Part shown: piece after piece, positions 7,668 to 14,673 of the stretch
Numbering within the stretch: the stretch's first letter is position 1
How the letters are laid out: every line of letters starts with the position of its first letter
Source of the DNA: Taibaiella soli
GTDB lineage: Bacteria > Bacteroidota > Bacteroidia > Chitinophagales > Chitinophagaceae
NCBI RefSeq assembly: GCF_003236175.1
Contig: NZ_QKTW01000017.1
Location: 198,304 to 262,303, forward strand
Length of the DNA stretch: 64,000 nucleotides
Direction of reading: 5' to 3'
Program-made: the position numbers and the translations under genes
Notes under the pieces: model-generated
Told to the model about the DNA's origin: nothing
What the model saw: the letters and a program-made list of their open reading frames with translations, nothing else
The model's database searches: none

Positions 7668-8468
7668 TCAATTTCCCACCTTTCTAAAACTAAACATATT
7701 TGCCGCTCTTAGCTCATTGCTACCGGCACCGTAGACAACCTTGATATATTGTTTTACCGATAAGGCCACTGCATTGAGTCCGGTCATGGGTGTGTAGAGC
7801 ATCTGATCTCGCTGGGAAATGAGCAGTTTTAACTGGCCGGTCACACGTACTGTCTCCTGATTAACCTCCTTCAATTCAGCCAGACGCTTTTGTAATCCGG
7901 AGATTGTGATATCAGCTTCGTTTGGCGCATAACCCGGTTCAGTAAGAATAGCACCGATCAGCTTTTCAAAATGAGTAATAGTGGCATCATAACTCGTTTG
8001 ACTGACAGATCTGGTTTTAGGTGCATCTTCTGCTTTCGTTGCTTCAGTGCCAGGTGTAACTACACCCAGGCGCCGGCCTCTGATTTTAGCAATATAATAT
8101 TTGCTTGTCTTGATTGCAGTAGACGCAGGATTGGCTATTTCAAGCGTATTGCTGGCTCTAGCCGCTAGTTTCTTCGTGTCTTCAAATAAGTTATTCCGAT
8201 TCTGTCTGGACTGAGACTGCATAATCTCCGCGTTAGTTACCTGCTCCATAATCGCGACCGCCTTATTATAATACTCCTTGAGCTGCGGTATAATCATATC
8301 CGGCCGGCTGGGCTGATAAGCAGTACCCAGCGATTCACAAAAGTGAATAAGGCCCTGAAAATTTGCGACATTCTTATAATGTCCTGTCTCTGAATTTGTA
8401 CCTGGCATGTGTGGTATATTTTGAGAAAGTAAACCAACAACTGTGCCATTTTTTAAGTTCTTATGCAA
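7668..8468 (-). CDS. hypothetical protein (helical, Bacteroidota type)
   Basis: I do not recognise a functional family. The protein has 266 residues if it starts at the TTG at 8468; the first in-frame ATG is at 8408 and would give 246. There is no signal peptide or membrane helix. The middle is mostly helical and rich in charged residues (LISGLQKRLAEL-type segments), with an arginine/lysine-rich patch around residues 120-165. The end, SVKQYIKVVYGAGSNELRAANMF, resembles a motif found in unannotated Bacteroidota proteins with a four-helix appearance. It is a single gene; the phased 21-bp array lies 115-390 bases before its start and may control it. Confidence 0.65.
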   Translation of the reverse strand: MHKNLKNGTVVGLLSQNIPHMPGTNSETGHYKNVANFQGLIHFCESLGTAYQPSRPDMIIPQLKEYYNKAVAIMEQVTNAEIMQSQSRQNRNNLFEDTKKLAARASNTLEIANPASTAIKTSKYYIAKIRGRRLGVVTPGTEATKAEDAPKTRSVSQTSYDATITHFEKLIGAILTEPGYAPNEADITISGLQKRLAELKEVNQETVRVTGQLKLLISQRDQMLYTPMTGLNAVALSVKQYIKVVYGAGSNELRAANMFSFRKVGN

Positions 8469-8583
8469 TGCATTAACAAGTACGGCGATAAATCATTACT
8501 AATCAACGCAAGATATTTTTAAAGCCATTCAAAATGCGCCCACAATAGAAATAATTAAACTAGAACCATAGACTTCAAACACG

Positions 8584-8856
8584 GTACAGAACGTTTCTAA
8601 CAGCTTACTATAAGCTGCACACGAATCGCAGTAAGCTTCTCACAACTTACAGTATACTCTTAAGCTATTACCGCATATCTCTAAAGCATTACCGTAGACG
8701 ATTGTTAGCTTACCGTAAGCTCCTTATAACTTACCGTACAATCATACAACGTCACCGTATATCATTGTCAAATTACCGTAGGCTCCAGAAAGCTTCCTGT
8801 ACATCTCTAAAACATAACCCTAGACAAATGAAGAATTACAGTAGACGTCAATATCA
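8584..8856. repeat. array of 13 dyad-symmetric sites on a 21-bp pitch
   Basis: Thirteen degenerate units start at 8584, 8605, 8626, 8647, 8668, 8689, 8710, 8731, 8752, 8773, 8794, 8815 and 8836, each exactly 21 bases after the last. The conserved core is TTAC-N-GTA(A), with the centre base free (C, A or T); the best unit, 8706-8720, is the 15-bp dyad AGCTTAC-C-GTAAGCT. The remaining bases of each unit vary. A weaker unit may sit at 8563; the register is lost after 8857. Two helical turns between dyads suggests protein binding on one DNA face. It fills the gap between two leftward genes (8469-9006), in which I find no convincing gene. Confidence 0.85.
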
Positions 8857-10390: not shown

Positions 10391-13123
10391 TTATTTTTTT
10401 CCCGTAAACTGAATCACATCTATCATTTGTGCAGTTTTGTACTTCACTTCAAGGTTTACAGATTCTATTTTCTGTGGCGTTACTGTTACCTTCTCTTGCT
10501 TTAACTGAAAAATATCGCTGAACTCGGCTGAAATTTTAACCTCGTATTTACCCGCAGGAAGCGAAACGTTAAAAGATCCATCCGTCATCACATAACATGT
10601 AAAATCTTTTCCGCTCTCATTGGTAAAAATCAATGGAAGACCCGCTGCGCTTACCGTTCGTGTATAATATTTAGGAATAGAAAGACTAACCTTCCCCGAC
10701 ACTACACCGAGTTTATACATTGGAATAAACTTCTTCGTTCCCTTAAACATCAGCTGGTCGATCTGTCTTACCGGCAAATAGCCATTCCCATTTATAATAC
10801 CCAGATCATTGTTACGCTGATCAGTGTAATGTGAAATTTTGATACGTCCGTCAGCGTCCGATTGAGCCATCTGCTGATTGCTCCCATATACGATACCTTT
10901 CAGTAGTGCCTCCCCCTGATCTCTTTTCCCATTTTGATTCGCATCATTGAAAAAAATCATTGATTTTTTCTGCACAAAAAAATCAGCCGGGCGATGAAAT
11001 AAGAAGCGAACGCCTACACGAATATCCTGGTAGGCAATACCATTGGTAAATGAATACGAACAACTACCAGTTAGTTGCCAGTTCTGAAACAAATTCGCCA
11101 CTACAGACCCCGATACGTATTGGTAAGGAAGAGGATTACCAGCCCAATACTGCAGGTTATAGTTTGCCGACAATTCAAGTTTCTGTTGCAGCAGCGGAAC
11201 ACGGACACCAGGCCCAACGCTATACATTGAAAACGGCTTGCCGGTTGTGGCTTCCTGAATCAGATCTGTTGCAAAGAAAGCATGGTTTTGAACCAGACCC
11301 TGTATGTAAAAGAACTTATATCGTGCCTGCAATTGCAATCTTACCGGACGGTCATTATCATTTCGGGCAGGCACTTGATTTTGAACATAACTTAAAGCTG
11401 TGGTCAGCGAACCGCCAATAGAAAACCGAAGGCTGTTATAGCCCATGTCAAGCGCTGTATAAAAGCCGTTTAATTCATAAAACGGACTATTCGAGAATTG
11501 TGTCTTCTGGCTGGAATAGTATGGCATAAAACGGAAAGAATACTTCCCGGCTGTCTTAAATATATTGACCCCATACTGTCCGTTTTCCTGAAGATTGTGC
11601 GCAATAATACCTGTTACATTGTAGGTATAGGGATCACTGTTTACATAATTTGCAACCATACCAAGGCCCCAGCTATCTGTATTTCCGGAGAAGAGATAAT
11701 TAATAAGTTCCGAAAACTGCATTGTTTTCTTCATTAGTCCTGCATATTCCGGCGTACTGTAATAGTTGTCTGAAAACAGCTGCCAACGTGATTTGTGCAT
11801 CCGCCACCTTAGGCGCGCGGCAGCGCCTTGTTCGTGGCCGCTAAATAATTCTCCCGTATTCCCGAAAAACGAAGCCTCTACAGACTGTCGCAAATCAGGC
11901 TGCCATTTAAAACCTACGCCACCTAAATAGAGATCTTTATAAATGGGATTATTCCATTGATGCAGGAATGATCCATTTACCGAAGTCTGACCTGAAAGAT
12001 CGAAACCGCCCGCAGCATAGAGGCTACGTGTATTATTGCCTGGTGCATTCTGATCGCCGAGCAGATATGAGTTTGCATTGTAAAGATAACTGACCCCAAT
12101 AAAACGTTTGCTATCACCGATGGTTACATTGCCGCCTTGTCCGTAAATTGGTAATTCACCCCAAATATTCATCAGTCCTGCGCGTGTCGTGACCATCCCT
12201 TGTTTGTAGCCAATGTAGGTATTCATCAAGGTTAGCGGCTGATGAGCGCCTGCATTATATGCATCCATCGAGAGCACAACCCCGTTTTCAGTTGCGGCTT
12301 TATTATAAGCTACCTGATATTCCTGGGTATTTACATTCATACCATTGTGATAAAACTGTACAGCAGCATAATTATCTAAAGCCGCAGTGACATTCTGTTG
12401 TAATTCCAGATTATTTGTTACGATAACCGGCCGGATGTTTATTGCCGTTACAGAAGCATTGCTGCTATCGCGCAGATCAATTGCGAGTGATTGTTCTTCG
12501 TATACACTATTGCTATTTTCCCTCTTCTGAAAATGGTAGTCGACTGTCACAGTAGTATCCGTATACGCAGGGAGCGAAAAAAACAATTCGTGCTGTTCCG
12601 TAATCCAGTTTGGTCCATCTCCGGCGTATAGTGATAAATGCTCAGAAGTATTGCCTTTATTACGAACAAGCACCGGCACATGTAATGTTTCTTTCAGATT
12701 ATTAATAACAGGCGAAAGCTCCGTCGTGTTCATCTGAACATTTCGCTGTAAAGCCATATCGATTTTAAACTGAGCGATCGCAGTATCTCCCTTATCTGAA
12801 ATAATCCATAAATAGACGGGAAAACCCGCATACAGATCCTGCCGTGGCAACATGCATTTTACTACCTGCAATGCAGAAGCATGCGGCGCAACTGTTAGAA
12901 CTTTTGCATTAAACAACCGAATAGAAGTTTCCACAGGCACAAAATGAAAACGAGCAGTATCATCACTTTTATTAGCAACGCTTAATGTGTTGAAAAGAAT
13001 AGACCCGGCATTGTCTACAAGCACTACAGAAGACGCAAATCTAGCCTCAATACCTTGTGCATAAATTGAATCTGAGAAATAAAACAGTAAAGAAAAAAAG
13101 AAAAAGAATGCCCGGATCTTCAC
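10391..13123 (-). CDS. usher-like outer-membrane beta-barrel protein
   Basis: This 910-residue protein has a signal peptide ending in YAQ at residue 23, then two Ig-like beta-sandwich regions (about 24-130 and 135-230), then some 480 residues of alternating aromatic/polar beta strands as in an outer-membrane barrel, and a C-terminal soluble part (about 720-910) that begins with a calcium-loop motif FFNDANQNGKRDQGE and ends in carboxypeptidase-regulatory-like sandwiches. Together with divergent pilin-like and chaperone genes next door, it is best read as an outer-membrane usher that exports and assembles a pilus. Sequence similarity to FimD/PapC is not obvious to me, so this is an inference from architecture and context. 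The ATG lies 170 bases from the pilin start, so expression is divergent. Confidence 0.6.
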   Translation of the reverse strand: MKIRAFFFFFSLLFYFSDSIYAQGIEARFASSVVLVDNAGSILFNTLSVANKSDDTARFHFVPVETSIRLFNAKVLTVAPHASALQVVKCMLPRQDLYAGFPVYLWIISDKGDTAIAQFKIDMALQRNVQMNTTELSPVINNLKETLHVPVLVRNKGNTSEHLSLYAGDGPNWITEQHELFFSLPAYTDTTVTVDYHFQKRENSNSVYEEQSLAIDLRDSSNASVTAINIRPVIVTNNLELQQNVTAALDNYAAVQFYHNGMNVNTQEYQVAYNKAATENGVVLSMDAYNAGAHQPLTLMNTYIGYKQGMVTTRAGLMNIWGELPIYGQGGNVTIGDSKRFIGVSYLYNANSYLLGDQNAPGNNTRSLYAAGGFDLSGQTSVNGSFLHQWNNPIYKDLYLGGVGFKWQPDLRQSVEASFFGNTGELFSGHEQGAAARLRWRMHKSRWQLFSDNYYSTPEYAGLMKKTMQFSELINYLFSGNTDSWGLGMVANYVNSDPYTYNVTGIIAHNLQENGQYGVNIFKTAGKYSFRFMPYYSSQKTQFSNSPFYELNGFYTALDMGYNSLRFSIGGSLTTALSYVQNQVPARNDNDRPVRLQLQARYKFFYIQGLVQNHAFFATDLIQEATTGKPFSMYSVGPGVRVPLLQQKLELSANYNLQYWAGNPLPYQYVSGSVVANLFQNWQLTGSCSYSFTNGIAYQDIRVGVRFLFHRPADFFVQKKSMIFFNDANQNGKRDQGEALLKGIVYGSNQQMAQSDADGRIKISHYTDQRNNDLGIINGNGYLPVRQIDQLMFKGTKKFIPMYKLGVVSGKVSLSIPKYYTRTVSAAGLPLIFTNESGKDFTCYVMTDGSFNVSLPAGKYEVKISAEFSDIFQLKQEKVTVTPQKIESVNLEVKYKTAQMIDVIQFTGKK

Positions 13124-13224
13124 CGCGTAAAGCTATTTAGATAAATGAGCATCTGTTATTGTGTAACCTCATTTTGTTCATAGTAGAAGTACTAAATCTT
13201 GGCCATATTCAACGGAGGAATTTT

Positions 13225-13252
13225 TTTGATGTGTTTTGGATAGATACATTTA
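13225..13252 (+). promoter_or_regulatory. candidate promoter of the pilin operon
   Basis: TTTG (13225-13228) and TACATTTA (13245-13252) resemble the Bacteroidota -33 and -7 elements with a 16-base gap, slightly short. The start codon lies 40 bases downstream. Confidence 0.3.
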
Positions 13253-13292
13253 CATCGGGAGAACAAATTTTTAACAACCACATCTACTCGCA

Positions 13293-13811
13293 ATGAAGAA
13301 TTTTCTGGGAGCCTCGGCAATAGCCTTGTGCGGTATTTTATCATGTACGGCAGCTCATGCCCAATCTACAGGCAACGTAACGCTAAATGTGCAGATTGCA
13401 GACATTATTTCGATGACTGTGAATACAAACACTGTCAACTTCAACCTGAACTCGGGAACCAGCTATGCTGCCGATCAGACACAACCGGCTACCTCGCAGT
13501 TTACAATTCTTGCCACTCGTCCGTTTGATCTGGATGTGAAATCGAATGCGGCAAGTCTTACAAATGGTTCTAATTCGCTGCCACTATCAGTCGTGCAAAT
13601 TGAAAGTACCAACTCAAATCTCGGTATTACACCAGCTGCTCCTGTGCTGCTTACTACTGCTAACCAAAAATTGCTGGATGAAGCATCAGCCGGACTTGCA
13701 CAGAATGTAGACATGAAATATACATTGCTGACCAATAGTAATTTCAGCAGCTTTAACGTGCCAGCTGGTACTTACACAACGACACTTGTGTACACAGCAT
13801 CTATCGATTAA
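13293..13811 (+). CDS. pilin-like exported subunit (major)
   Basis: This 172-residue protein has a signal peptide (residues 1-23, ending in AHAQ) and a mature part rich in T, S, N and V, predicted all-beta. It shares with the protein at 14666-15145 the words LLTTANQKLL, VDMKYTLL and the final strand VPAGTYTTTLVYTASID, so the two are homologous subunits. It lies first in the operon and is followed by an attenuator hairpin, which fits a highly expressed major subunit. Architecture resembles archaic chaperone-usher pilins, but I cannot name the family. Confidence 0.65.
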   Translation: MKNFLGASAIALCGILSCTAAHAQSTGNVTLNVQIADIISMTVNTNTVNFNLNSGTSYAADQTQPATSQFTILATRPFDLDVKSNAASLTNGSNSLPLSVVQIESTNSNLGITPAAPVLLTTANQKLLDEASAGLAQNVDMKYTLLTNSNFSSFNVPAGTYTTTLVYTASID

Positions 13812-13829
13812 TATTTAGTTACTTTGTAT

Positions 13830-13872
13830 GCCGGAGTTGATCTCATTGAGAGGCGCTCCGGCAACATTTTTT
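13830..13872 (+). terminator. terminator-like hairpin between pilin and chaperone genes
   Basis: The arms GCCGGAG (13830-13836) and CTCCGGC (13856-13862) enclose 19 bases, then AACA and six T residues (13867-13872) that touch the chaperone ATG at 13873. Partial termination here would leave more pilin than chaperone mRNA. Confidence 0.65.
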
Positions 13873-14673
13873 ATGAAATACTTTATTTCACTTCTTTTCC
13901 TTTTGACCGCCTGTTCTGTCACTGCACAGATAAGCCTGTCGGTTGCACCTGCCCGTTTATTTTTTGATATAACCGGAACAAGAAAGACGGAAAAGATAAA
14001 AGTGTTTAATAACGGCAAGGAAAAGGCTATCTGGCAGATCTATCTGCAGGACTGGACGAGAGACAGTCTGGGACAAAAGCATTTCTTTCCGCCTAATACG
14101 CTGCCGCATTCCTGCGCTGCCGATCTCATTATATTTCCATCCGTGTTGCAAATTCCTCCTGATAGTACCGGCGAAGTAACAGTGAGTATAAAGGATAATT
14201 TCAGCCTGTCACAGACAGATACTTCGAAACATGCAATGGTTGTAATCTCTCAGGCAGATGATCCTGCAAAGCTGAAAGATGCAGCTGCGAAAAAACAGGC
14301 GGCCATTATGATTAAAGCGGAGTTTGCAGTACATGTTTATCTGCTGAATGGCGGGTCAAAAAAGGATGTAACCATCGATCAGTTCTATCTGCAGCGAGAC
14401 AGTGCAAAAAACAAGTTGCAGGTTTACGTGCACAACACAGGCTTGCAACCGTTGGATACAAAGGTGCATATTGAATTTTCAAACGATGCTACTGCAAAGC
14501 AGTGGAAACTAAATGAAATAACTGCCGCGATATTACCAGGCGATATACGAATTGTAAGTTTTGCTTTGCCCGATGGTTTGGAAAAAGGGATGTATTCTGC
14601 AATGGCAACTGTAGACTGCGGTGAAGATGTGCCGTTAAAAATTGGAGAGCTTAGTTTTAACTGGAATGAATAA
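13873..14673 (+). CDS. PapD-like periplasmic fimbrial chaperone
   Basis: This 266-residue protein begins with a signal peptide (MKYFISLLFLLTACSVTAQ). The upstream in-frame ATG at 13828 lies within the hairpin and is rejected. Residues about 20-140 form a first Ig-like domain (ISLSVAPARLFFDITGTRKTEKIKVFNNGKEK) as in fimbrial chaperones, with PPDSTGEVTVSI where the F-G strand region would be; residues 150-266 form a second. Such chaperones bind pilin subunits in the periplasm by donating a strand and deliver them to an usher. Between the two pilin-like genes it completes a plausible chaperone-usher set. It overlaps the second pilin gene by eight bases. Confidence 0.75.
   Translation: MKYFISLLFLLTACSVTAQISLSVAPARLFFDITGTRKTEKIKVFNNGKEKAIWQIYLQDWTRDSLGQKHFFPPNTLPHSCAADLIIFPSVLQIPPDSTGEVTVSIKDNFSLSQTDTSKHAMVVISQADDPAKLKDAAAKKQAAIMIKAEFAVHVYLLNGGSKKDVTIDQFYLQRDSAKNKLQVYVHNTGLQPLDTKVHIEFSNDATAKQWKLNEITAAILPGDIRIVSFALPDGLEKGMYSAMATVDCGEDVPLKIGELSFNWNE

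Follow-up and report, generated by a model that had tools for sequence, protein, structure and literature searches.

The phased array at positions 8,562 to 8,855 of the 64,000-nucleotide stretch of DNA analysed here (hereafter referred to as the window) belongs to a two-part module, consisting of a gene and an array, that recurs across Bacteroidota, with the spacing of the repeats kept and their sequence differing nearly everywhere. This phylum-wide co-travel of array and gene was missed in a preliminary description of the window, which read the array by itself. We consider it probable (about 60%) that each encoded protein has its own phased array, to which it binds cooperatively both in cis and in trans, in the manner of a centromere or iteron platform. 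The array would be the DNA half of a co-mobile module, and the small, basic, all-helical protein encoded beside it the other half. Acting as double-stranded DNA, the array would present 10 to 15 sites two helical turns apart on the same face, allowing a protein to assemble cooperatively along it. The likeliest occupant would be the protein encoded next door, recognising its own private motif both in the adjacent array (in cis) and in orphan arrays that share this motif at other chromosomal positions (in trans), and the outcome would be the anchoring, positioning or compaction of DNA, as at a centromere, and/or autoregulation. A multi-site protein platform had been among the possibilities first listed for the array, and it is the explanation preferred here. 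A cognate binder is supported by the linkage of gene and array, the pitch, the constrained register, motifs that are private and track the protein, the sharing of motifs in trans and the basic, helical nature of the protein. Counted against it are the lack of a recognisable DNA-binding domain or Foldseek match, the failure of profile comparison to relate the array-adjoining families, a weak overall dyad, the part played by descent in the Mantel correlation, the failure to find an orphan partner for the window motif in its own genome and an excess of open frames (60 vs 45).

The window array and its linked gene

The array consists of 14 units of exactly 21 bp, an extent obtained by automatic extension with a position matrix. 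The preliminary description had placed 13 units at 8,584–8,856; the array and its pitch are real, but the count is revised by the extension. Between 8,584 and 8,856, identity at lags of 21, 42 and 63 bp was 0.50, 0.52 and 0.57, respectively, with the remaining lags at roughly 0.20–0.34, and these three lags gave the highest 200-bp autocorrelations in the 64-kb window. The units share a plus-strand consensus core, TTAC-Y-GTA, and have otherwise diverged. The best core sites, TTACNGTA, span 8,605–8,843 on the plus strand, 21 bp apart, with starts at 8,605, 8,626, 8,647, 8,668, 8,689, 8,710, 8,731, 8,752, 8,773, 8,794, 8,815 and 8,836. This core was exact in six units, present with at most one mismatch in 10 and with at most two in 13, always at a spacing of 21 bp; over the whole window, the pattern occurred 16 times, against 6.5 expected, a number attained in none of 100 shuffles. 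The TTAC-N-GTA(A) dyad described earlier was recovered locally in the window array, in which arms of 3–4 bases around a free centre were more symmetric than in column-shuffled arrays (p = 0.003 and 0.005); no such excess was seen for arms of six bases or for the whole unit (p about 0.1). Over arrays in general, dyad symmetry had a mean z of 0.63, with p ≤ 0.05 for 19%, and a universal dyad was rejected because only this fifth or so of the arrays had a clear one. The dyad is thus real in the window array but not general, whereas the pitch is general. Nor is TTACNGTAA, previously taken to be a conserved core, the feature that loci have in common, since the motif differs at almost every one of them.

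The linked gene (7,668–8,408, minus strand) encodes a 246-aa protein of the SETGHAKN family (hereafter referred to as SET), with a pI of about 9.5. Family comparison pointed to ATG at 8,408, rather than TTG at 8,468, as the likely start, and the array therefore ends 153 bp upstream of the gene, instead of the 115 bp originally given; the spacer (8,409–8,561, minus strand) is the presumed promoter or 5′ region. The AlphaFold2 model of the protein (mean pLDDT 91.7) contains only helices, including helices of 37 residues, folded into two helical bundles that form two similar halves. No match to this model was obtained with Foldseek (best E-values of 0.29 for the PDB and 0.14 for viral models). 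The window protein has no Pfam match, comparison of the family with Pfam, NCBIfam, PHROGs, PADLOC and PDB sequences gave no credible match (scattered, chance-like hits of single members), and no DNA-binding domain, including a helix-turn-helix (HTH), was recognisable in the family scans or in the model.

Homologs of the window protein were found in 11 of 149 family genomes, with two paralogs in the home genome, and nearly all of the homologs in these 11 genomes had a 21-bp array nearby. A scan of GTDB contigs identified 240 relatives across Bacteroidota, including members of Flavobacterium, Chryseobacterium, Kaistella, Lacinutrix, Cyclobacteriaceae, Chitinophagales and Breznakibacter; the search for loci relied on two peptide patterns, and of the 240 relatives the 80 best were used. 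The family is sporadic (7 of 296 genomes of the phylum). A plasmid or phage origin was rejected, as collections of 72,556 plasmids and 50,697 phages contained no match; two loci were found in 2.9 million viral contigs.

Linkage of arrays to several protein families

An exact 21-bp array was found beside the gene at 96 of 103 SET loci (a few of which may have been counted twice, having been taken from two collections). It lay downstream at 91 loci and upstream at five, three of the latter being in the home genome; most relatives have it downstream. The median gap between gene and downstream array was 56 bp, and the SET arrays had a median of 12 units. In control windows of the same size from another genome, such periodicity was detected in 3 of 150. 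The seven SET loci without a clean 21-bp array include L139 and L147, whose sequence stops no more than about 230 bp from the gene. They also include L101, with an array pitch of 20.67 bp, and L145, with a truncated gene.

A second family (hereafter referred to as FN3) was reached through arrays that lack a SET protein. Its members, of about 205–213 aa, combine a helical N-terminal part with an Fn3 domain. Arrays were present at 25 of 29 FN3 loci, always upstream, with a period of 21 bp (20 loci), 22 bp (three loci) or 20 bp (two loci, one of which, L216, resembles a 5-bp repeat). De novo scanning of 1.26 Mb from the home genome, including the window, revealed more than a dozen further arrays, some adjoining genes of two more small-protein families (the L288 type and the L241/L255 type). 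Arrays lay beside about 19 of 30 members of the L288-type family and three of four distinct members of the L241 type; among relatives of the L288 and L241/L255 types, they were often directly downstream, with periods of 21, 22, 43/2, 64/3 and 65/3 bp. Three small-protein families besides SET, and possibly DUF6261 (PF19775), therefore adjoin arrays of 20–22 bp; near some DUF6261 genes (L235–L239), the arrays are weak hints, with periods of 41 and 62 bp. DUF6261 proteins are possible distant relatives of the window protein, judging from an hhalign comparison of the two families with five sequences (P = 0.01). No sequence homology was found between SET and FN3, and profile comparison among the array-adjoining families demonstrated no relatedness; several unrelated proteins would therefore have to bind phased arrays.

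The proximity of the arrays to the gene, the basic nature of the protein and the polarity of the motif relative to the gene (similarity on the same strand exceeding that on the opposite strand) would also be consistent with an array working as RNA, its repeats binding the protein or another factor from within the 3′ (SET) or 5′ (FN3) untranslated region. We regard this as improbable: flexible RNA would have no need of a fixed two-turn pitch, and the SET arrays, mostly downstream, can also lie upstream. Moreover, of the 54 loci that could be tested, 20 have a terminator-like hairpin of the intrinsic type between the stop codon and the array, and a transcript of the gene thus need not include the array.

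Pitch, register and private motifs

Over all families, the arrays had periods of 20, 21, 22, 41/2, 43/2, 62/3, 64/3 and 65/3 bp. These periods fit two turns of B-DNA, and the sibling pitches of 20–22 bp bracket that length, in agreement with the two helical turns per unit suggested initially. Positions 10–11 bp apart, that is, one turn apart, were anti-correlated (z = −7.0 for SET and −3.2 for FN3), which may reflect avoidance of binding in half-register. The A+T periodicity at 10.5 bp was depleted in the arrays, rather than enriched, and intrinsic DNA curvature was therefore rejected as their function. An origin of the unit as 3 × 7 bp was not retained either: A+T content has a 7-bp harmonic, yet base identity at lag 7 was merely marginal.

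A plus-strand frame without a start codon is open through the window array; it was found to have 101 codons, matching the 100-codon frame already reported. Over the arrays in general, frames open throughout exceeded expectation (60 of 94 arrays vs 45), as might be the case if the arrays encoded heptad (7-codon) repeats. This reading can practically be dismissed, and it was rejected: many of the periods, which run from 20.5 to 22 bp, are not divisible by three (20, 22, 41, 43, 44, 62, 64 and 65 bp among siblings), and the arrays are therefore not reading-frame repeats. In addition, open frames were equally frequent on the two strands (44 and 41), and no conserved protein was seen in the open frame of relatives.

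In pairs of orthologs, the arrays accumulated 0.129 substitutions per site, the genes 0.098 and the flanks 0.089. Gaps per 100 substitutions numbered 9.2 in the arrays (some of them unit-sized, at 63 and 21 bp, and others probably alignment noise) versus 29.8 in neighbouring non-coding DNA. The number of units was usually equal between orthologs, and a continuation in shifted register was observed in only 2 of 65 arrays. The pitch thus persists at related loci and, with indels depleted and register slips nearly absent, the earlier proposal that it is under selection holds. Drifted tandem duplication without function, as in a minisatellite, would account for the higher identity at lag 63 than at lag 21 in the window, which points to past block duplications, and for the occurrence of nearly perfect repeats and unit-sized gaps in some arrays. 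It is a distinctly improbable explanation, given the same pitch beside the same gene families across the phylum and unit numbers mostly kept while bases change fast, and the same scarcity of indels and slips argues against it.

Distinct motifs were identified in 107 of 120 arrays. One motif for all arrays was rejected: the strand-polar average profile of the SET arrays reached 4.39, against about 1.7 for shuffled columns, but kin arrays contribute to this value and the window array does not fit the profile. Motif similarity was correlated with protein similarity (Mantel r = 0.43, attained in none of 500 permutations), far more strongly in the orientation of the gene strand. The correlation was merely 0.10 at protein identities below 65%; most of the signal therefore comes from proteins more than 65% identical, and common descent contributes part of it.

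Each genome carries several private motifs. In the home genome, gene-linked and orphan arrays together formed motif groups, in which L288 clustered with L243, L269, L252 and L254, L241 with L268, L255 with L249, and L068 with L240:18715. The motif of L068 matched that of the orphan array L240:18715 at 0.52–0.60 for all 21-bp offsets, with no best offset, and the two therefore share a motif and a pitch rather than being simple positional copies; the pairs L269 and L288, and L269 and L243, look like copies. Orphan arrays carrying the motif of a gene-linked array were also found in genomes G200 and G045. No orphan partner was found for the window motif in the home genome. The orphan arrays of the home genome with a pitch of about 21 or 22 bp (L240:18715, L243:4958, L252:11482, L254:3136, L268:8556, L269:19262, L276:8467 and L278:13840) sit between ordinary genes, such as trxB and purD, and fall into a small number of motif groups with strong dyad symmetry. 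Orphan arrays with no gene nearby, and the sharing of one kind of array by several families without detectable similarity, would also be expected of a phased platform for a regulatory or nucleoid-associated DNA-binding protein of the host, with the encoded helical proteins acting elsewhere and profiting from the array or controlling it. We consider such a platform unlikely: a single host protein should give one motif per genome, yet there are several, and motif similarity tracks protein similarity.

Mobility and comparison with known systems

Gene and array move together. Between close copies, the homologous stretch usually begins about 50–110 bp upstream of the gene and ends with the array; the Flavobacterium locus L119 and the Epilithonimonas locus L121 are 98% identical over a segment that starts 235 bp before the gene and runs to 500 bp past it. 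Most upstream neighbours share the orientation of the gene. Among them, on the evidence of sequence alone, are restriction-modification, Vsr-like, DUF262-like and metal-efflux genes. At several Flavobacterium-type loci, an attC-like site (with RYYYAAC ... GTTRRRY-like ends and paired arms) starts about 0–45 bp after the array, and some modules therefore ride in integron cassettes, with the array just before attC. The array itself is not attC. Integron attC sites were located 3′ of the gene and array at L107, L113, L114 and L119, the scanned motif being absent from most loci, and there was no sign of attC by eye at the window locus. No recurrent neighbour family, including recombinase- or transposase-like genes and NTPases (ParA, ParM, TubZ), was found within up to 10 kb, and a transposase-like partner gene was consequently rejected. 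Homology extending little beyond gene and array, cargo-like co-oriented neighbours and true attC sites close behind some arrays would suit arrays that themselves serve a gene-carrying mobile element as sites of recombination or attachment. This is very unlikely, as attC explains the mobility at those loci, no recombinase family recurs and private motifs are ill-suited to a shared recombinase. At L107, L113, L114, L119 and L108, attC-like sites recur along a single contig strand, some of them right after a 21-bp array; these are Flavobacterium-type integron cassettes.

The sopC centromere of the F plasmid consists of 12 repeats of 43 bp and adjoins sopB. ParR binds the parC of its own family and not that of another (PMC9426499). 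The module resembles such iterated plasmid centromeres in having a gene beside an array of direct repeats, a pitch near whole helical turns and private specificity, and it shares with ParABS and ParMRC systems the arrangement of iterated sites next to a possible binder gene. It differs from them in being chromosomal, with no recurring NTPase partner gene and with multiple modules and orphan arrays per genome, and it has no recognisable ribbon-helix-helix (RHH) or HTH, neither an HTH ParB nor an RHH ParR fold having been found with Pfam, NCBIfam, PDB sequences or Foldseek. Plasmid origins of the Rep iteron type have direct repeats about 21–22 bp apart beside the gene of their binding protein. 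The module has no Rep domain and no sign of an origin, and was not plasmid-borne in the collection searched. KfrA of plasmid RA3 is an alpha-helical protein, with an HTH at its N-terminus and an extended helical tail, that binds a repetitive operator (five 9-bp repeats in the promoter) beside its own gene, and this DNA binding is needed for plasmid stability (PMC7783346). The module likewise has a gene for a helical protein beside repetitive DNA, which the protein would bind, but it has 10–15 sites at 21 bp, mostly downstream, and the combination of an HTH and a helical part typical of KfrA, StbA and pSK1-Par was not found in the family scans or the model. Iterated centromeres with private specificity and KfrA are the closest working analogues of the module. 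By its fold and partner genes, it belongs to neither family.

We tentatively suggest that DNA-organising modules with private motifs may form a large and unrecognised class in Bacteroidota, in which diverse small helical proteins act on their own phased arrays, in cis and at orphan sites, as single-protein centromere-like or chromatin-nucleating systems spread horizontally. A phylum-wide combination of gene and array, with unknown protein families and strict helical spacing, would be a new bacterial way of marking and organising DNA, and may account for a number of anonymous proteins of Bacteroidota as well as for one class of repeats between genes. It offers testable partners (one protein, one private motif and a defined array) and a natural library of protein–motif pairs for studying the evolution of DNA specificity. 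Nothing relevant on 21-bp repeats in Bacteroidetes was found in the openly licensed literature, and a description may exist elsewhere.

Some loci have additional features. In composite arrays (L045:1171-1585, L056:1480-1815 and L035:1480-1815), the motif switches part-way, with the 21-bp register kept. The 21-bp array downstream of the gene at L137 is also a near-perfect 7-bp repeat and is perhaps young, and separate 7-bp tandem repeats (e.g. TTTGACT and AAAAGTC) occur in the home genome at L240:10209, L243:13998 and L269:16805. Within the window, positions 10,391–14,673 contain a cluster of genes for a large exported protein of 910 aa, an exported pilin-like protein of 172 aa and a chaperone-like protein of 281 aa. 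This cluster resembles a fimbrial or surface-assembly operon that lacks annotation.
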